Source: Flavobacteriaceae bacterium (GTDB taxonomy: Bacteria > Bacteroidota > Bacteroidia > Flavobacteriales > Flavobacteriaceae). Taken from it: a stretch of DNA of 64,000 nucleotides. The translations under genes were made by a program, and so were the position numbers. The notes under the pieces are model-generated. The model saw only the letters and a list, made by a program, of their open reading frames with translations, did not search any database and was not told where the DNA came from. The stretch is from assembly GCA_028284745.1 (NCBI GenBank), contig JANQRC010000064.1, positions 1 to 64,000 on the forward strand, in the 5' to 3' direction. This document shows positions 34,307 to 47,632 of the stretch, in pieces (the stretch's first letter is position 1; each line of letters starts with the position of its first letter).

Positions 34307-34906
34307 CTATTCATGCCGTGATCCTAAAACTTCAACGATGTCTGCTAGCTTATATCCTTTCGCCTGCAACAAGATCAAATAGTGAAACAACAAGTCTGCG
34401 CTTTCGTTTAGGAAGCGCTGCTCATTGTCATCCTTAGCTTCAATGACGGTCTCAACAGCTTCTTCGCCTACTTTCTGGGCGATCTTGTTGATACCTTTTC
34501 GAAAGAGTGAGGCCACATAGCTTGCCTGGTTCTCTGGGTTGTCCTTTCGGTCTTTGATGATCTGCTCTAGGTCAGAAAGAAAGCCAAAACGTTGTTCGTT
34601 AGGTTCTGCCCAACAAGTATCGTCGCCTTTGTGACAGGTATGCCCAACAGGTTTTGCTTGGACCAACAGCGTATCGTTGTCGCAGTCTACTTTGATGTCG
34701 ACCAAATTGAGGTAGTTTTCGCTCTCTTCGCCTTTGGTCCAGAGTCGCTGTTTGCTTCTACTAAAAAAGGTGACCTTTTTTGTTTCCTGTGTTTTTTTCA
34801 ACGCGGCTTCGTTCATATAGCCCAACATCAGTACTTTTTGTGTAGTTGCATCTTGGATGATGGCAGGAACGAGGCCGTCATTATTCTTATTGAAGTCTAC
34901 TTGCAT
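34307..34906 (-). CDS. hisIE: Bifunctional phosphoribosyl-AMP cyclohydrolase / phosphoribosyl-ATP pyrophosphatase
   Basis: A 199-residue fusion doing steps 2 and 3 of histidine synthesis. The HisI half (1-110) has VLMLGYMNEAALKKTQETKKVTFFSR, the metal-binding KVDCDNDTLLVQAKPVGHTCH and the second Cys in DDTCW. The HisE half (about 112-199) has SYVASLFRKGINKIAQKVGEEAVETVIEAKD and FLNESADLLFHYLILL. It is the last his gene of the operon, 84 bp after hisF. That gap holds an inverted-repeat element. Confidence 0.95.
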   Translation of the reverse strand: MQVDFNKNNDGLVPAIIQDATTQKVLMLGYMNEAALKKTQETKKVTFFSRSKQRLWTKGEESENYLNLVDIKVDCDNDTLLVQAKPVGHTCHKGDDTCWAEPNEQRFGFLSDLEQIIKDRKDNPENQASYVASLFRKGINKIAQKVGEEAVETVIEAKDDNEQRFLNESADLLFHYLILLQAKGYKLADIVEVLGSRHE

Positions 34907-34918
34907 AATCGTCTTTTT

Positions 34919-34987
34919 GTCATTCCGTACTTGTTACGGAATCCATTGTTATGGCATTCTATCGATTCCTGCCTGCGCAGGAACGAC
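34919..34987. repeat. MITE/REP-like palindromic element between hisF and hisIE
   Basis: A 69-bp segment bounded by imperfect inverted ends (GTCATTCC at the left, GGAACGAC at the right). It contains two small hairpins: CCGTA/TACGG around 34925-34939 and CCTGC/GCAGG around 34968-34981. Sequences of the type 'GTCATTCC...GCAGGAA' are scattered in many bacterial genomes as non-coding repeats. Here it sits inside the his operon. Confidence 0.55.
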
Positions 34988-34990
34988 AAC

Positions 34991-35746
34991 CTAGAGTCTA
35001 ACAGGTATCTTGTTTTTCTTTAGTTCTTCTTTCAGGTCTCTGATCTCCATTTCTTTGAAGTGGAAAACACTCGCGGCCAATGCAGCATCTGCCTTTCCAT
35101 TGATAAAGGTATCTATAAAATGCTGTTTCGTTCCCGCACCTCCGGATGCGATGATCGGGATGTTCACCAGACTGGAGAGTTTCGTGAGCGCCTTGTTGGC
35201 AAAACCATTCTTTGTGCCATCATGGTCCATCGAAGTAAAGAGGATCTCGCCAGCACCGCGTTGTTCTACCTCCTTGGCCCACTCAAACAAGTCTAATTCA
35301 GTAGGTACCTTGCCTCCTACCAGATGTACTTTCCATCGACCATCGACCTGTTTGGCATCGATGGCGACCACAATACACTGACTGCCAAACTTGGCCACCA
35401 AGTCATTGATCAGCTGTGGATCCTTTACTGCAGAGGAGTTGATGGATATCTTGTCGGCTCCGCATTTTAGCAACATGTCCACATCTTCTATCGAGCTGAT
35501 CCCGCCACCGACGGTAAAGGGAATATTGACCTTCTCGGCAACACGGAGCACAAGCTCTGCTAAGGTCTTACGTTTTTCTTCAGTTGCTGAAATATCAAGA
35601 AAAACCAGCTCGTCGGCACCTTCTTGGGCATAGATCCCGGCCAACTCTACTGGGTCGCCAGCATCTCTGAGTTCTACAAAGTTCACACCCTTCACGGTGC
35701 GGCCGTCCTTGATGTCAAGACAAGGTATGATTCGTTTAGTGAGCAT
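34991..35746 (-). CDS. hisF: Imidazole glycerol phosphate synthase, cyclase subunit
   Basis: A 251-residue (beta-alpha)8 barrel. With HisH it forms imidazole glycerol phosphate and AICAR from PRFAR and ammonia. The catalytic Asp of strand 1 is in [19 protein letters not shown], and the second catalytic Asp is expected in [11 protein letters not shown]. The phosphate-binding repeats are VGGGISS and IIASGGAG. It lies 81 bp after the DinB-like gene, which itself overlaps hisA. Confidence 0.96.
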
Positions 35747-35827
35747 AATTTAAATTTTAGAATGACGAATGTAAAATTATGGGCCGTCTAAAAGTCGCTT
35801 TCTCACAGTCTTCTAGATTCGTAATTA

Positions 35828-36340
35828 CTATTCGTTTTTAATATTTAGGTCGAAACCATCATAAAAGCCCAGTTGCTGGTCGTTGAGTTGCTTCACCCAA
35901 AAAGCGACCTGCCCGGTATGATACGAGTAATGCTCTACCACGTGCATCACGATACCAATGCCTGAGAGTTGAAAGCCTTGTACGCTACGCACTTTCACCA
36001 AAGTTTCTAAAGAGGTATCTTGGATGGTTTGCTTGGCTTTTGCTACCGTAAACTCTAGCTTATCCAGCAACTGCGTCTTCGTGTATCCTTCTCGTGTTCC
36101 AAACTCCATATCTCTGGTTCTGGTATCGGATAGCGCCCCTAGTGAAGCGATGGCATACTGCGTAATGTTTCCGCAGAGGTGTAAAATAAGGTTTCCTATT
36201 GAGTTCGAGTTTTCGTTTGGTCGCTTCCAGACCATCTCGTCATCAATATCTTGCAAAGCCTTGTTGACCATACGTGTGCTCTCGTCCAAACGATACAGTG
36301 CATTTTTCTTGAATTCTGATAGTATCTGCTCTTCCATCAT
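35828..36340 (-). CDS. DinB-like protein embedded in the his operon
   Basis: A 170-residue DinB-superfamily protein starting [20 protein letters not shown]. The metal-ligand His residues fit [12 protein letters not shown] (about residue 52) and the C-terminal [19 protein letters not shown]. Its ATG overlaps the hisA stop in an ATGA junction; upstream extension of the frame would run into hisA and is rejected. The coupling implies that it is made in step with HisA, but no DinB protein has a known place in histidine synthesis. The role is unknown: thiol transferase, metal protein or passenger gene. Confidence 0.82.
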
Positions 36341-37062
36341 TGTTGAAGTATGAACTGTTCGAGTTGTTTCATTTGGATACGACCCTCGTAAATAGCCTTT
36401 CCTATGATGGCACCTTCGCAACCTAATTGAGCCAGTCTTGGCAGTTCATCGAATTCAGAGATGCCGCCCGAAGCGATCAATTTGATTCCGGGCGTCTCTC
36501 TGAGAATGCGCTCATAGAGTTGAAAAGAAGGTCCTTGTAGCATGCCATCCTTGCTAATGTCTGTACAAATTACGTAATGCACACCCTTGCTTTGGTACTG
36601 TCGAATAAATGGCATCAAGGCTTCCTCTGACTCTTCCAACCAACCGGAAACAGCTATCTTTTCATCTTTCGCATCAGCACCAAGAATGATCCTTTCGGCA
36701 CCGTATTTCAGTAACCATCCTAAGAACACATCAGGTTCTTTTACCGCGATGCTGCCACCTGTGATTTGTTGAGCACCGCTATCGAAGGCGATGTGCAGGT
36801 CCTCATCCGATTTTAGTCCGCCGCCAAAATCAATATTCAAGTTTGTTCTTGAGGCAATCTGTTCAAGTATTCTATAGTTGACGATGTGCTTACTCTTAGC
36901 ACCATCTAGGTCTACCAAATGTAGGTATTGAATACCATGGTCCTCAAACATTTTGGCAACCTCCAAAGGGTCTTCATTGTACACCTTCTTGGTATCATAA
37001 TCTCCTTTAGCCAAGCGTACACACTTACCGTCGATGACGTCTATAGCTGGGATGATTCTCAT
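36337..37062 (-). CDS. hisA: ProFAR isomerase
   Basis: A 241-residue (beta-alpha)8 barrel performing the Amadori rearrangement of ProFAR to PRFAR. The catalytic Asp8 lies in [21 protein letters not shown], and the second Asp is in [17 protein letters not shown]. The phosphate loops are IDFGGGLKS and LIASGGISE. It overlaps hisH by four bases upstream and the DinB-like gene by four bases downstream. Confidence 0.95.
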
Positions 37063-37643
37063 GATAAGGCTAAAAAGTCTTTAAGGATCTGTGCGCCGGC
37101 ATCGCTACTCTTCTCTGGGTGAAACTGAACGCCATAAAAATTATCTTTTTGCAAGGCCGAGCTGTAGACGACCCCGTAGTCGGTCTTTGCGATGGTTTCT
37201 TTGCAGAGCGGGGCATAAAAGCTATGCACGAGATACATGTACTCGTTATCACCAACACCATCGAACAGTTGAGACTTTAGGTCATAGATCTGATTCCAAC
37301 CGATCTGTGGTACTTTCATTCCGCTATTGAATTTCAGGACGTTCACATCAAAAATGCCCAAACCTTTTGTATTCCCTTCTTCAGAAGAATTGCACATGAG
37401 CTGCATGCCCAAGCAAATGCCTAACACTGGTTGTTTGAGTTCTGGGATCAAGCTATCGATGTCTGTTGCACGTAATTTACTCATCGCGCTACTGGCTTCA
37501 CCAACGCCAGGAAATATAACTTTGTCGGCACTTTTGATCTCTTCCGGGTCTGAAGATAATACCGATTGGTATCCTAGTCTTTGGACTGCAAACTGAATAC
37601 TTTGGATATTACCAGCGCCATAGTCTATGATCACTATTTTCAT
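37059..37643 (-). CDS. hisH: Imidazole glycerol phosphate synthase, glutaminase subunit
   Basis: A 194-residue class I glutamine amidotransferase that supplies ammonia to HisF. The nucleophile Cys is in [18 protein letters not shown] (about residue 78). The His-Glu pair is in [17 protein letters not shown] near the C-terminus, and the oxyanion strand is [11 protein letters not shown] at the start. Its start abuts the hisB stop, with a one-base overlap. Confidence 0.95.
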
Positions 37644-38779
37644 TACAGCATTCCTTTTGTGGATGGAAGGATCATTTTATCAGCATCTCTTTTCACTGCC
37701 GCTTTGATCGCTTTAGCAAGTGCTTTGAAGATTGCTTCGATCTTGTGATGTTCATTTGTGCCTTCGGCTTTGATATTCAAGTTGGCCTTGGCACCATCGG
37801 TAAACGATTTAAAGAAATGAAAGAACATTTCAGTAGGCATCTTACCTATCATCTCGCGATTGAAGTCTGCTTCCCAGACCAGCCAATTGCGCCCACCAAA
37901 ATCGATACTCACTCGGGCCAGGCAATCATCCATAGGCAGACAAAAACCATAGCGCTCAATGCCTAACTTATCGCCCAATGCTTTGTAGAAGACCTCGCCC
38001 AAAGCTATGGCAGTGTCTTCGATCGTGTGGTGCTCGTCTACCTCTAGGTCGCCCTTTACCTTGATGTCCAAGTCCATTTGACCATGGCGTGCCAGTTGAT
38101 CCAACATATGATCGAAGAAAGCAATACCTGTATCGATGTTGCTTTTTCCTGTCCCATCCAGGTTAAGTAGTATTGAAATATCTGTCTCGTTTGTCTTTCG
38201 CTCAATCGAGACTGTTCTATCTTTCAGCTTCAAAAACTCGTAGATCTCTTGCCAATCGGTGGTCTCTAAAGCGATATAGCCCTCCAACGCAGCGTTGTCA
38301 CTAGCGATCTCATCATCGCCCAACCCTCTATCCTCATTCATAAAAATACCTCTTCCGCCTAGATTCTTAGCTAGCTCAATATCTGTGATACGATCGCCTA
38401 TCACAAAAGAGTTTTCCAGATCATATCGATCGGTAAGATATTGGGTCAGTAAACCTGTATTGGGTTTACGTGTGGGCGCATTGTCTTTGGCAAAGGTCCT
38501 GTCGATAAAAACTTCTGAGAACACCACTCCTTCATTTTCGAAGGATCTCAACACAAAGTTATGTACAGGCCAAAAGGTGTCTTCTGGATACACTTCAGTG
38601 CCAAGGCCGTCTTGGTTGGTGATCATGACCAGTTCAAAATCTAGCTCTTTGGCGATCTTTCCCAAATACGTGAAACACTTTGGGTAGAACTCCAGCTTTT
38701 CAAAAGAGTCTACTTGTTCGTCGGCCGGCTCCTTGATGATAGTGCCATCCCTATCTATGAATATTACTTTTCTAGCCAT
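37643..38779 (-). CDS. hisB: Bifunctional histidinol-phosphatase / imidazoleglycerol-phosphate dehydratase
   Basis: A 378-residue fusion. The N-terminal half (1-165) is a HAD phosphatase with [15 protein letters not shown] and [18 protein letters not shown]. The C-terminal half (about 190-378) is IGP dehydratase with the metal-binding pairs [28 protein letters not shown] and [19 protein letters not shown]. The same fusion occurs in enterobacteria and many Bacteroidota. It follows hisC after three bases. Confidence 0.96.
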
Positions 38780-38782
38780 GAC

Positions 38783-39826
38783 CTATAAGTTTTGTAAGGC
38801 TTCGATCAATTGTTCATTTTCTTCACTGGCACCTACCGTAAAGCGCAGCGTGTTCTCACAAAGAGGCTGTGTACTGCGGTTTCGCACGACGATCCCTTTT
38901 GCGATCAATTGTTGATATCGCTGGTCGGCATCATCTACTTTTGCCAGGATGAAGTTTGCATCGGATGGAAAGACCTTCTTGACGAAGGGCAACCCTCGCA
39001 ACGCACGCATCAATTCTGTTCTTTCCTCAAGGATCGACTGCACTTCTTGTTCCAAGATCTCTTGCCCTATCACATGAGGCAATGCACGTTCTTGCGTGAG
39101 TTGATTCACATTGTAGGGAGGTTTTATCTTGTTCAGGATGGAAATGATGTCTGCTGAAGCATAACATATTCCTAGTCGGATTCCAGCCAACCCATATGCC
39201 TTCGATAGTGTTTGCGTGATGATCAAGTTGGGATATTTATGAAGCTTTCGGAGCCAACTCTTCTTTTTGGAAAAATCGATGTAAGCTTCATCAATAACAA
39301 CCAGTCCAGGAAATTCTTGAATGATGCTTTTCACCTTTTCCTTCGAAAAACTATTGCCTGTGGGGTTATTGGGCGAACACAAGAACAAAAGCTTGGTGTT
39401 CTTGTCTATGCTCCCAAGAATGTTTTCGAGATCAGGCTGAAAGTTATGGGTCAATAGTACTTCCTTGTTGGTAACAGCATTGGTCTCAGCCAGCACCTTG
39501 TACATTCCGTATGTGGGTGGAAGTGTGATGACGTTGTCTTTGTTGGGCTCGCAAAATGCTCTGAAGATGAGATCCAATACTTCGTCAGAGCCATTGCCCA
39601 GTAGTATCTGTGACTCCAATACTCCTTTTTGTGCAGCCAGCACTGCTTTTAGGCTTCGCTGTTGTGGGTCTGGATAACGATTCACGCCATTGCTGAAAGG
39701 GTTCTCGTTAGCATCAAGAAACACCATATCACGCTGAAAGTCTTTAAACTCGTCGCGCGCTGAGCTGTAGGGCTTCATTTTGGCCACGTTCTCCCTGACT
39801 AGTTCTTTTATGTTGAAATCTTTCAT
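38783..39826 (-). CDS. hisC: Histidinol-phosphate aminotransferase
   Basis: A 347-residue class I/II aminotransferase using PLP. It starts MKDFNIKELVRENVAKMKPYSSARDE. The PLP lysine is in IITQTLSKAYGLAGIRLG near residue 215. DANENPF is near residue 35, and LCSPNNPTGNSF near 143. An upstream in-frame extension to 39874 encodes MTVPSPWGEGQNEEKH, which is a translated intergenic hairpin repeat and not a conserved part of the enzyme. For that reason the ATG at 39826 is chosen. Confidence 0.95.
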   Translation of the reverse strand: MKDFNIKELVRENVAKMKPYSSARDEFKDFQRDMVFLDANENPFSNGVNRYPDPQQRSLKAVLAAQKGVLESQILLGNGSDEVLDLIFRAFCEPNKDNVITLPPTYGMYKVLAETNAVTNKEVLLTHNFQPDLENILGSIDKNTKLLFLCSPNNPTGNSFSKEKVKSIIQEFPGLVVIDEAYIDFSKKKSWLRKLHKYPNLIITQTLSKAYGLAGIRLGICYASADIISILNKIKPPYNVNQLTQERALPHVIGQEILEQEVQSILEERTELMRALRGLPFVKKVFPSDANFILAKVDDADQRYQQLIAKGIVVRNRSTQPLCENTLRFTVGASEENEQLIEALQNL

Positions 39827-39837
39827 ATGCTTCTCCT

Positions 39838-39865
39838 CATTCTGGCCCTCTCCCCAAGGAGAGGG
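39838..39865. repeat. Hairpin repeat between hisD and hisC
   Basis: CCCTCTCC (39846-39853) pairs with GGAGAGGG (39858-39865) across a four-base loop. It is preceded by a CATTCTGG stretch that belongs to the same repeat type. Such 'ccctctcc...ggagaggg' blocks are common intergenic repeats in flavobacterial genomes. Here it fills the 44-bp gap between hisD and hisC and could tune expression of the genes downstream of hisD. Confidence 0.6.
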
Positions 39866-39870
39866 AACTG

Positions 39871-41160
39871 TCAATTGATACCTAACTTTTGAAGTCGCAA
39901 TGTCACAGCATTCTTATGCGCTTGCAAGCCTTCGGCCTCTGCCATTTGCTCAATCGCAGGACCAATATTCTTGATACCTTCCTTCGATATCTTTTGAAAG
40001 GTCATACTTTTCATGAAACTGTCTAAATTCACACCGCTGTATTGCTTTGCATAGCCGTTGGTAGGAAGCGTGTGATTGGTTCCCGATGCATAGTCTCCTG
40101 CACTCTCTGGCGTGTATGTACCTACAAAGACCGAGCCCGCATTCTGGACATGGTCAATGTAGAACTCTTCATTCTTGGTGCAGATAATGAAATGTTCAGG
40201 GCCATACTCGTTGATCAGATCTATGGCAATAGCATCATTTTCCACATATATCGAACGTGAGTTGGCCATGGCTTGCCTTGTTATATCTCTTCTTGGCAAA
40301 ACCACCAATTGCGTTTCGATTTCTTTCTCTACGGCGGCGATCATTTCTCTAGAAGTAGAAACGAGAATCACTTGACTATCTACACCATGCTCTGCTTGAC
40401 TTAGCAAGTCTGAGGCGACAAAGGCCGGGTCGGCAGTCTCATCAGCCACTACGAGCAGTTCACTTGGGCCAGCAGGCATATCGATCGCTACGCCATGGTT
40501 CGTTGCCAATTGCTTGGCAACCGTGACGTATTGATTTCCTGGGCCAAATATCTTATATACCTTTGAAATGCTCTCCGTGCCAAAAGCCATGGCCGCCACT
40601 GCTTGAATACCACCTACCTTGAAGATCTTGGTCACACCACAAAGGTCTGCTGTGTAAAGAATGGCAGCGTTTACAATGCCGTCGCTATCTGGTGGTGTGC
40701 ACAGTACGATTTCGTTGCATCCTGCAAGTTTGGCTGGGATAGCCAACATTAAAATAGTTGAAAAAAGCGGTGCCGTACCTCCAGGAATGTACAACCCCAC
40801 TTTTTGTATGGGTCGCTTTTCTTGCCAACATTGTACTCCGGGACTGGTAGTTAGACTAACTTTCTCCGTGCGTTGTGCAGCATGGAATCGTTCGATATTG
40901 CCCTTGGCCAATTCGATGGCTACTTTCAATTCTTCGGGAACCGAAACAGTAGCCTGCTCGATCTCTTCAATAGAAACCTGTATTTGGCCAAGAGACACCT
41001 TGTCAAATTGTTGCGTATATTTTTGAACAGCAATGTCTCCTTCTTGCTGTACAGCATCAAAGACTCGTTTTACAGTACTTTCGATATCGGCAACAGTCTG
41101 CGTTGGACGTTTTAGAACGGTAGGCCATTCTTCTTTGGGTGGATTGTCATATTGTATCAT
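39871..41160 (-). CDS. hisD: Histidinol dehydrogenase
   Basis: A 429-residue zinc enzyme oxidising histidinol to histidine in two NAD-dependent steps. Family features are PGGTAPLFSTILMLAIPAKLAGC, KIFGPGNQYVTVAKQL, DMPAGPSELLVVADE and the zinc/catalytic region SQAEHGVDSQVILV and GTNHTLPTNGYAKQYSGV. The start ATG overlaps the hisG stop in ATGA form (41160-41157). A longer frame up to 41184 lies within hisG and is not needed. Confidence 0.96.
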   Translation of the reverse strand: MIQYDNPPKEEWPTVLKRPTQTVADIESTVKRVFDAVQQEGDIAVQKYTQQFDKVSLGQIQVSIEEIEQATVSVPEELKVAIELAKGNIERFHAAQRTEKVSLTTSPGVQCWQEKRPIQKVGLYIPGGTAPLFSTILMLAIPAKLAGCNEIVLCTPPDSDGIVNAAILYTADLCGVTKIFKVGGIQAVAAMAFGTESISKVYKIFGPGNQYVTVAKQLATNHGVAIDMPAGPSELLVVADETADPAFVASDLLSQAEHGVDSQVILVSTSREMIAAVEKEIETQLVVLPRRDITRQAMANSRSIYVENDAIAIDLINEYGPEHFIICTKNEEFYIDHVQNAGSVFVGTYTPESAGDYASGTNHTLPTNGYAKQYSGVNLDSFMKSMTFQKISKEGIKNIGPAIEQMAEAEGLQAHKNAVTLRLQKLGIN

Positions 41161-42014
41161 ACCACCATCTTTTCGATTGAACAAACCAAGATTCCTTCAG
41201 CGCCAGCTTCTTTTATACTATCGATGATCTCCCAAAAACGACCTGCATCGATCACAGAATGTACAGAGCTCCACCCTTTCTGTGCCAAAGGCAATACCGT
41301 TGGGCTCCGCATACCGGGCAGTAGATCAATGATGTCGTCCAATTTCTCATTGGGGGCATTCAACAGAACATACTTGTTGGCCCTGCCTTTGAGCACAGCC
41401 TGAAGTCTGAATCGCAAACGCTCTAGAATGTACGTAGCTTCTTTAGACATCTTGGGAGATACTGTCAGTACAGCTTCGCTTTTCAACATCACCTCGACTT
41501 CCTTCAAATTGTTTTTGAACAATGTGCTCCCGCTAGAAACGATGTCACAGATCGCGTCGGCAAGACCAATGTTGGGTGCTATCTCGACCGAACCATTGAT
41601 GATGTGCAAGTCTGCTTTGATTCCTTTTTCAGCAAGAAAGTCATTGACCGTGTTCGGATATGAGGTGGCAATTCGCTTTCCTTGGAAGAACTGGATTCCC
41701 TCATAGGCTGTCGATTTCGGCACGGCCAATGAGACCTTGCATTTGGAGAAGCCCAGCTTCTCGACTATTTCTAGGTCAGTTCCCTTTTCAATGAGCGTAT
41801 TCTCGCCCAAAATGGCAATATCTACCACACCATCTCGCAAATACTGAGGGATGTCTCCATTTCGCAAATAGAAGACTTCCAGCGGGAAGTTACGTGCTGA
41901 AGCCTTCAGTTGGTCTTTACCATTGTCGATGGAGATACCGCAATCTTTTAGCAAGCGAAGTGAATCTTCGTTCAAACGCCCAGATTTCTGGACAGCGATT
42001 TTGATCTTGGTCAT
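41157..42014 (-). CDS. hisG: ATP phosphoribosyltransferase, long form
   Basis: A 285-residue enzyme doing the first, committed step of histidine synthesis. The N-terminal catalytic part has KIAVQKSGRLNEDSLRLLKDCGI and RDGVVDIAILGENTLIEKG. The phosphate-binding loop is DLHIINGSVEIAPNIGLADAICDIVSSGST. The extra C-terminal region (about 210-285) is the regulatory domain of the long form, which binds histidine. First gene of the operon; the attenuator terminator ends 30 bp before its start. Confidence 0.96.
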   Translation of the reverse strand: MTKIKIAVQKSGRLNEDSLRLLKDCGISIDNGKDQLKASARNFPLEVFYLRNGDIPQYLRDGVVDIAILGENTLIEKGTDLEIVEKLGFSKCKVSLAVPKSTAYEGIQFFQGKRIATSYPNTVNDFLAEKGIKADLHIINGSVEIAPNIGLADAICDIVSSGSTLFKNNLKEVEVMLKSEAVLTVSPKMSKEATYILERLRFRLQAVLKGRANKYVLLNAPNEKLDDIIDLLPGMRSPTVLPLAQKGWSSVHSVIDAGRFWEIIDSIKEAGAEGILVCSIEKMVV

Positions 42015-42043
42015 TTTCTTTTTCTAATGCTTGAGCAATTCTA

Positions 42044-42081
42044 GCGAAAACATAAAACCCGCTTGAATGCTCAAACGGGTT
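42044..42081 (-). terminator. Attenuator terminator of the his operon
   Basis: On the minus strand an 11-bp stem (arms 42071-42081 and 42056-42066, with one G-U pair) and a four-base loop are followed by a U-rich tail, between the leader peptide and hisG. Its position before the first gene, after a His-rich leader, marks it as an attenuator. Confidence 0.85.
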
Positions 42082-42111
42082 CTACTTCAAATGTTTATCA
42101 ACACAACACGG

Positions 42112-42168
42112 TCACCTCGCCTGAGACAAGTCAGAAGCATGATGGTGATGTGTATTGTTGTCAAACAT
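42112..42168 (-). CDS. hisL: His operon leader peptide (four consecutive His codons)
   Basis: An 18-codon reading frame on the minus strand, ATG at 42168-42166 and TGA at 42114-42112, encoding MFDNNTHHHHASDLSQAR. The four His codons are CAT CAC CAT CAT at 42150-42139. It lies 13-20 bp after the predicted promoter and 30 bp before the terminator arm. Downstream RNA (42099-42116) can pair in part with the His-codon stretch (UCACC with GGUGA, then ACAC with GUGU), as expected for alternative attenuator folds. By analogy with enterobacterial hisL, ribosome stalling at low His-tRNA should favour read-through. Confidence 0.85.
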   Translation of the reverse strand: MFDNNTHHHHASDLSQAR

Positions 42169-42187
42169 TCTATATTGTTTTCTAGAA

Positions 42188-42219
42188 CAAATTTAAGACA
42201 AACCAATTCAAAAGTGCAA
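42188..42219 (-). promoter_or_regulatory. Promoter of the his operon
   Basis: On the minus strand TTG (42219-42217) and TAAATTTG (42195-42188) are 21 bp apart, matching the Bacteroidota form TTG-N17-23-TAnnTTTG. Transcription would begin near 42181, just before the leader peptide. Confidence 0.6.
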
Positions 42220-46885: not shown

Positions 46886-47632
46886 TTATGTTAGCATACC
46901 ACCATCTACGTTCAGCACCTGCCCTGTAACGTAGGCAGATAGGTCTGAAGCTAAAAACAGGCAAGCATTGGCAACATCTTCAGGTGTGCCGCCACGTTTC
47001 AGTGGAATGGCATCTCGCCAACCCTGCACCACATCTTCGTTAAGTTTGGCGGTCATCTCGGTTTCTATGAAACCAGGTGCGATCACATTGCTGCGAATGT
47101 TCCTTGAGCCCAACTCGAGTGCCACAGATTTCGAAAAACCGATGATCCCTGCTTTGGAGGCAGCATAGTTGGTCTGACCTGCGTTGCCCTTCACTCCCAC
47201 TACAGAGCTCATGTTGATGATCGACCCTTTTCGTTGTTTCAACATCGTGCGTTGCACTGCCTTTGTCATGTTGAAGACCGACTTTAAATTCACCTCTATC
47301 ACTTTGTCAAAGTCTTCTTCAGAAATACGCATCAACAGATTGTCTTTCGTGATTCCTGCATTGTTGATCAGCACGTCGATACTTCCAAAATCTTCAACTA
47401 CAGCGGCGGCAAGGTCTTGTGCCTGCTGAAAGTCTGCTGCGTTGCTTTGGTAGCCCTTGGCTTTGATGCCTTTTGCGTTTAGATGAGTTTCTAATTGATT
47501 GGCTGCTTCGACCGAAGAACTATATGTAAAAGCCACATTAGCCCCATGATCGGCGAATACTTCGGCAATACCTTTTCCTATTCCGCGGCTTGCGCCTGTG
47601 ATGATGATGGTCTTTCCTTCTAAGAGTTTCAT
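46886..47632 (-). CDS. fabG: 3-oxoacyl-ACP reductase
   Basis: A 248-residue short-chain dehydrogenase/reductase of fatty-acid synthesis. The cofactor motif is TGASRGIGKGIA near the start, NNAGITKDNLL is near residue 88, and the catalytic Ser-Tyr-Lys lies in SVVGVKGNAGQTNYAASKAG. The C-terminus GQVLNVDGGM is typical of FabG. The ATG at 47632 is chosen because the -7 box at 47667 would leave no leader for the longer frame up to 47662. First gene of the fabG-VWA-SPFH group. Confidence 0.94.
   Translation of the reverse strand: MKLLEGKTIIITGASRGIGKGIAEVFADHGANVAFTYSSSVEAANQLETHLNAKGIKAKGYQSNAADFQQAQDLAAAVVEDFGSIDVLINNAGITKDNLLMRISEEDFDKVIEVNLKSVFNMTKAVQRTMLKQRKGSIINMSSVVGVKGNAGQTNYAASKAGIIGFSKSVALELGSRNIRSNVIAPGFIETEMTAKLNEDVVQGWRDAIPLKRGGTPEDVANACLFLASDLSAYVTGQVLNVDGGMLT

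Follow-up and report, generated by a model that had tools for sequence, protein, structure and literature searches.

Ahead of the his operon of a Flavobacteriaceae bacterium, in the 64,000-nucleotide stretch of DNA analysed here (the window), lies a short His-rich reading frame followed by a hairpin with a U-rich tail. Such a leader raises three linked questions: does it sense the translating ribosome in the manner of the his leader of E. coli and Salmonella, how would its peptide be started without a Shine-Dalgarno sequence, and is transcription termination its only output? On the first of these, sequence comparison and folding models together lead us to regard it as an attenuator that adjusts transcription of the his operon to the position of a translating ribosome, with a probability of about 0.9. 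The elements and pairings that carry this reading were placed by sequence and by comparison with related loci, and are as follows:

42112-42168, minus strand: leader peptide ORF, MFDNNTHHHHASDLSQAR, 18 codons plus UGA, from the ATG at 42168 to the TGA at 42112
42139-42150, minus strand: putative sensor, CAT CAC CAT CAT, i.e. four consecutive His codons
42107-42141, minus strand: hairpin 1, in which 42141-42135 (the last His codon plus the bases behind it) pairs with 42113-42107 (the stop codon region)
42118-42125, minus strand: region B, the 5′ strand of the antiterminator, CUCAGGCG, in the Ser-Gln-Ala codons
42071-42081, minus strand: region C, the 5′ arm of the terminator, AACCCGUUUGA, contested by B, D and E
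42056-42066, minus strand: region D, the 3′ arm of the terminator, UCAAGCGGGUU
42081-42056, minus strand: the terminator as a whole, AACCCGUUUGA-GCAU-UCAAGCGGGUU, 11 bp, also picked up by an independent terminator scan
42047-42057, minus strand: U-rich terminator tail, UUUUAUGUUUU
42029-42041, minus strand: region E, GAAUUGCUCAAGC, whose core (42037-42029) is complementary to 42076-42068 (terminator 5′ arm and loop)

All of the parts named in the original prediction, namely the 18-codon frame, the tetra-His run, the 11-bp stem with its U-rich tail and hisG behind them, could be located. The loop of hairpin 1 contains the antiterminator strand B, with six of the seven hairpin positions pairable in the window, and 14 nt separate the 3′ end of region E from the hisG start. 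The leader RNA folds far more stably than its shuffled copies (z −4.9). Given the composition of the window, 0.21 runs of four CAY codons are expected per 64 kb, against two observed. The other run of four CAY triplets lies at 47598-47609 on the minus strand (CATCATCATCAC).

The operon that would be controlled by this leader consists of:

41157-42014, minus strand: hisG, the first gene of the operon (ATG at 42014), matching TIGR00070 with 183.7 bits and TIGR03455 with 100.2 bits, both above cut-off
34307-41184, minus strand: the remaining operon, i.e. hisD, hisC, hisB, hisH, hisA, an extra gene, hisF and hisIE

The gene order is hisGDCBHA-(extra gene)-F-IE, where hisD, hisC, hisB, hisH and hisA were assigned by NCBIfam and hisF and hisIE were named from their translated ORFs only. 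The extra gene between hisA and hisF (35828-36421, minus strand) has no NCBIfam match and looks DinB-like by eye.

The plan of the leader is conserved throughout the family. Among 110 hisG loci, drawn from one genome per genus of Flavobacteriaceae plus named genomes, 109 have a His-run leader of the same plan together with a terminator; 107 of these came from the first scan, and two with a shorter His run (L010 and L090, in which the run is reduced to HHR or YHH at the corresponding in-frame position and the terminator is retained) were added by hand. In the single exception, a draft genome (L061), the locus falls at a contig end and the leader is absent. The usual leaders of the family read MRNKNTHHHFYTCPQAR or MTFIQLHHHHFHTCTQAS. 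Aligning the relatives, as had been proposed together with the original prediction, thus returned both the preserved His codons and compensatory changes in the stems, and the combination that would have spoken against a leader, a terminator kept with the His codons fully lost, was not found among the close relatives examined. Beyond this set, most of 140 additional hisG loci from the family, order, class and phylum have a short His-run ORF upstream, although the scan of these loci was permissive and the distant cases are weaker, some of them without a terminator.

Compensatory changes also define which strands compete. It had been noted earlier that the RNA at 42099-42116 can pair with the His codons; this pairing is real, but it corresponds to the hairpin of the ribosome-free leader rather than to the antiterminator, which had been missed and in which B (42125-42118, CUCAGGCG) is complementary to C (42077-42070, CGUUUGAG). 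The pairing of B with C at the same time explains why the C-terminal codons of the leader are conserved. A 59-sequence alignment was built from loci picked for having a candidate E located 12-22 nt upstream of hisG. In it, 99.5% of cells are paired for C:D, 92.1% for B:C and 95.7% for C:E, the last figure being raised by the selection for E candidates. In 500 column shuffles, neither the percentage of paired cells nor the covariation score ever came up to the real value, whichever of the three pairings was considered, and a slide by one column caused a sharp drop in each; these shuffle tests ignore relatedness, yet many genera alter loop and E jointly. Nine loci carry C rather than U at a particular 5′ arm position, and every one of them has a G opposite it in B, D and E. 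Hairpin 1 behaves likewise, with double changes in five of the seven pairs of its RNAalifold consensus, and the pair involving the middle base of the stop codon is changed on both sides in 13 sequences.

Folding under ribosome constraints, a model that uses assumed footprints and the transcript only up to C, predicts a mean P(B:C) of 0.89-0.91 when the ribosome sits on the His codons, 0.00 when it sits on the stop codon and 0.37 in its absence; for the window, the corresponding values are 0.998, 0 and 0. In the full leader at equilibrium, by contrast, C:D beats both B:C and C:E in every state (mean P(C:D) 0.76-0.80). Since C:D wins once D is present, antitermination must be kinetic. An alternative hairpin that had ranked first by energy in 31 of 108 loci was rejected, as the outer terminator pairs had been omitted there and C:D dominates when the terminator is complete.

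From these pairings we infer the following course of events. The leader ORF would be translated as soon as the RNA emerges, without Shine-Dalgarno pairing. At low levels of charged His-tRNA, the ribosome would stall on the His codons, thereby opening hairpin 1 and freeing B, which would pair with C before D is made, allowing the polymerase to continue into hisG. With ample His-tRNA, the ribosome would instead reach the stop codon and cover B, leaving C:D to terminate transcription near 42047, and in the absence of a ribosome B would be held in hairpin 1, making termination the default. The classical attenuation by ribosome stalling that had been proposed for this locus is supported by conservation, compensatory changes and constrained folding. 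By its sequence, the element is a leader-peptide attenuator as that class is defined: its leader ORF is rich in codons for the amino acid made by the operon (four His codons), an intrinsic terminator lies between this ORF and the first structural gene, and computation (B:C covariation and constrained folding) yields an antiterminator that depends on ribosome position and excludes the terminator.

As for the second question, i.e. how the peptide would be started, the region upstream of the ORF provides a candidate answer in the form of a promoter:

42188-42195, minus strand: −7 promoter element, TAAATTTG, with a predicted transcription start near 42183

The sequence of this box matches TAHHTTTG, bearing out the Bacteroidota-type promoter of the original prediction. 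In Flavobacterium johnsoniae, TAHHTTTG is the −7 element and transcription starts 4-5 nt past it (PMC6847099). The box of the window begins 27 nt before the leader start codon, for a predicted 5′ UTR of about 15 nt. Upstream of the leaders in general, a looser −7 motif is found at 158 of 232 loci, compared to about 35 in shuffles, and strict TAHHTTTG starts 15 or 16 nt before the leader ATG at 39 loci, where about 0.2 would be expected per position; these 39 loci include many close relatives and do not represent independent events. If the start site is placed as in F. johnsoniae, the 5′ UTR is predicted to be 3-4 nt long in the group with the box at 15-16 nt, and about 12-17 nt in a second group with the box at 24-29 nt, to which the window belongs. 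We agree that no Shine-Dalgarno sequence precedes the leader, as anticipated for this phylum (PMC6847099). The short predicted 5′ UTRs suggest a way, open to testing, in which a leader peptide could be started promptly without one.

The his leader has counterparts in other amino acid operons. The trpE locus of the window's own genome (L283) has a WWW leader peptide (MKNKLTNNWWWSSEI) and a terminator, a combination that recurs in the trp operons of nearly all relatives (L281-L308), and in several of these trp leaders the −7 box lies only 12-17 nt before the leader start, i.e. in the short form. Several ilvD loci (L253, L256, L268, L270, L272 and L273) have short ORFs rich in Ile and Val, most of them beside CCTTCC-type terminators, and suggest branched-chain attenuators well upstream of ilvD. 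Taking the hisG loci of the family and beyond together with these trp and ilv leaders, the leader system is general in these bacteria. The leader of the window is therefore an ordinary member of a widespread type of leader-peptide attenuator, given the His-run leaders at 109 of 110 family loci and at most other Bacteroidota hisG loci sampled and the trp and ilv analogues. Judging from sequence, ribosome-sensing attenuators of his operons are near-universal in the sampled Flavobacteriaceae and common across the Bacteroidota.

The third question is raised by region E, which was noticed by reading the relatives and which lies between the terminator and hisG, where it can form pairs with both the loop and the 5′ arm of the terminator. 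In one-per-genus loci, an average of 4.14 of five loop positions pair with E, against 2.88 after permutation (maximum 3.43 in 5000), and the loop bases that covary with E are unpaired in the terminator. Relative to shuffled spacers, the complementarity of E has a mean z of 3.4 in the family (z > 2 in 106 of 163 loci) and of 4.2 in the other families of the order (z > 2 in 17 of 24), compared with −0.2 for the class outside the order and 0.3 for the phylum outside the class (10 loci). E was also sought in the trp and ilv leaders and not found there (mean z −0.1 and −0.2, respectively). By these sequence comparisons, E is specific to his leaders and, within the sample, to the order Flavobacteriales.

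The position of E is constrained as well. In each of the 119 loci scored, at least 13 nt separate its 3′ end from the hisG start, and in 72 of them this gap is 14-16 nt; the gap between E and the terminator, in contrast, can be anything from about 6 to 57 nt. In L125 and L207, two loci whose terminator loops diverge strongly, E still matches and lies 14 nt upstream of hisG. E is absent from short-spacer lineages (e.g. L117, L190 and L192) and is therefore dispensable. A search for a 7-base anchor with G-U pairs allowed proved unspecific, with 125 of 183 shuffled spacers passing compared to 154 of 183 real ones, and so the case for E rests on loop covariation, position and z-score. On a literature search limited to open-licence papers, we provisionally consider E to be newly described.

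For the role of E, we see two readings that are about equally likely, each of them tentative and below even odds. In the first, the his leader of the Flavobacteriales would be a dual switch, in which E adds a translational output for hisG. C and the loop would be shared by three rivals, such that a stalled ribosome sets both read-through (B versus D) and hisG translation (B versus E), while C:E would build a helix up against the region where hisG translation starts, except when C is held by B. Such a device would, if true, operate in a phylum that initiates translation without Shine-Dalgarno sequences, and many of its genera would make the leader peptide from a transcript with almost no 5′ UTR. 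As a prediction of a second output, E is precise and can be tested by mutation. Positions −20 to +20 are little structured in F. johnsoniae, with an enrichment of A between −14 and −11 and with bS1 placed around −12 to −15 (PMC6847099). A C:E helix would press on the edge of this initiation region, which points to a translational role. Measured against known translational attenuators, C:E is conserved and lies at least 13 nt before the start codon, and C:D is favoured at equilibrium. The translational role is weakened by the fact that D is made before E and that C:D is more stable in the model, meaning that E would seldom win, and the lack of E where spacers are short speaks against it as well.

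It is this weakness on which the second reading, our main alternative, builds. Here, the leader would be a plain transcription attenuator, and E would remodel the terminator hairpin or guide the processing or decay of the read-through mRNA, with no translational role. Such a function agrees with the preference for C:D over C:E at equilibrium, with termination being already decided before E is transcribed, and with some species (L093 and L011) in which E is extended, so that the whole terminator sequence could fold with the spacer into a single long hairpin as an alternative. However, it leaves the 13-nt limit and the clustering at 14-16 nt before hisG unexplained. This positional argument rests on the sharp lower limit, because the overall spreads of the distances to hisG and to the terminator are similar (sd 7.7 and 9.1).

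Considerably less likely, yet worth weighing, is that the short leader RNA released by termination acts in trans, its terminator loop binding to E of his mRNAs. Such pairing would fit the complementarity and covariation between loop bases and E, and a product of the Sinorhizobium trp attenuator, the leader peptide peTrpL, is reported to function in trans (PMC7298713); however, the formed C:D stem leaves only some five loop bases unpaired, and pairing in cis accounts for the data without a second molecule.

That a T-box or another known cis-regulatory RNA takes the place of the leader-peptide device is highly improbable, even though T-boxes serve his operons in other phyla (PMC9413887): the T-box family in Rfam gave no gathering-level match in the window and 20 related loci, no Rfam gathering score is reached in the window and a single tRNA is all that the 20 related loci give, and the in-frame His codons and the hairpin linked to the stop codon are conserved. 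Matches below the gathering cut-offs (RT-6, snoRNAs, sRNAs, weak Trp and Thr leaders) were treated as chance.

How, then, does the ribosome-sensing leader compare with known systems? The element before hisG was partly known, as a 2021 transcriptome study of Flavobacterium psychrophilum reports strong clues of leader-peptide attenuation at amino acid operons and a structured 5′ element before hisG that occurs in other genera too and has no Rfam hits (PMC9723704). The original prediction, which had called such attenuation best described in Proteobacteria and a coupled leader peptide notable in Bacteroidota, was too strong as regards rarity. The main text of the F. psychrophilum account gives no anatomy, antiterminator or E for hisG (PMC9723704), and a full pairing model is supplied here for a family without an Rfam match.

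Candidate his attenuators of Firmicutes share three to five consecutive His codons, a terminator with an antiterminator and the lack of a match to RF00514 (PMC9413887). They differ in that they belong to another phylum, and the passages describing them mention no downstream strand pairing with a terminator arm (PMC9413887). The same study describes translational attenuators, in which a structure sequestering the RBS replaces the terminator (PMC9413887). If E works as proposed, the leader would share with these that the leader ribosome decides on access to the start of the first gene. Unlike in translational attenuators, a full intrinsic terminator is kept here, E lies beside the start codon instead of covering it, and its effect is a proposed one.

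An older comparative study, by Vitreschak and others in 2004, reportedly lists attenuators in Bacteroidetes. With the his leader of E. coli and Salmonella (RF00514, His_leader), the leader described here shares a His-run peptide, the operon it precedes, ribosome position as the sensor and an antiterminator and terminator that are mutually exclusive. Against RF00514, the window scores 28.4 bits where the gathering cut-off is 49, and none of 20 related loci reaches this cut-off. Unlike its counterpart in E. coli and Salmonella, the leader has three to four His codons, no Shine-Dalgarno sequence and a short 5′ UTR, places one antiterminator strand within the last codons of its ORF and carries an extra region, E, before hisG.
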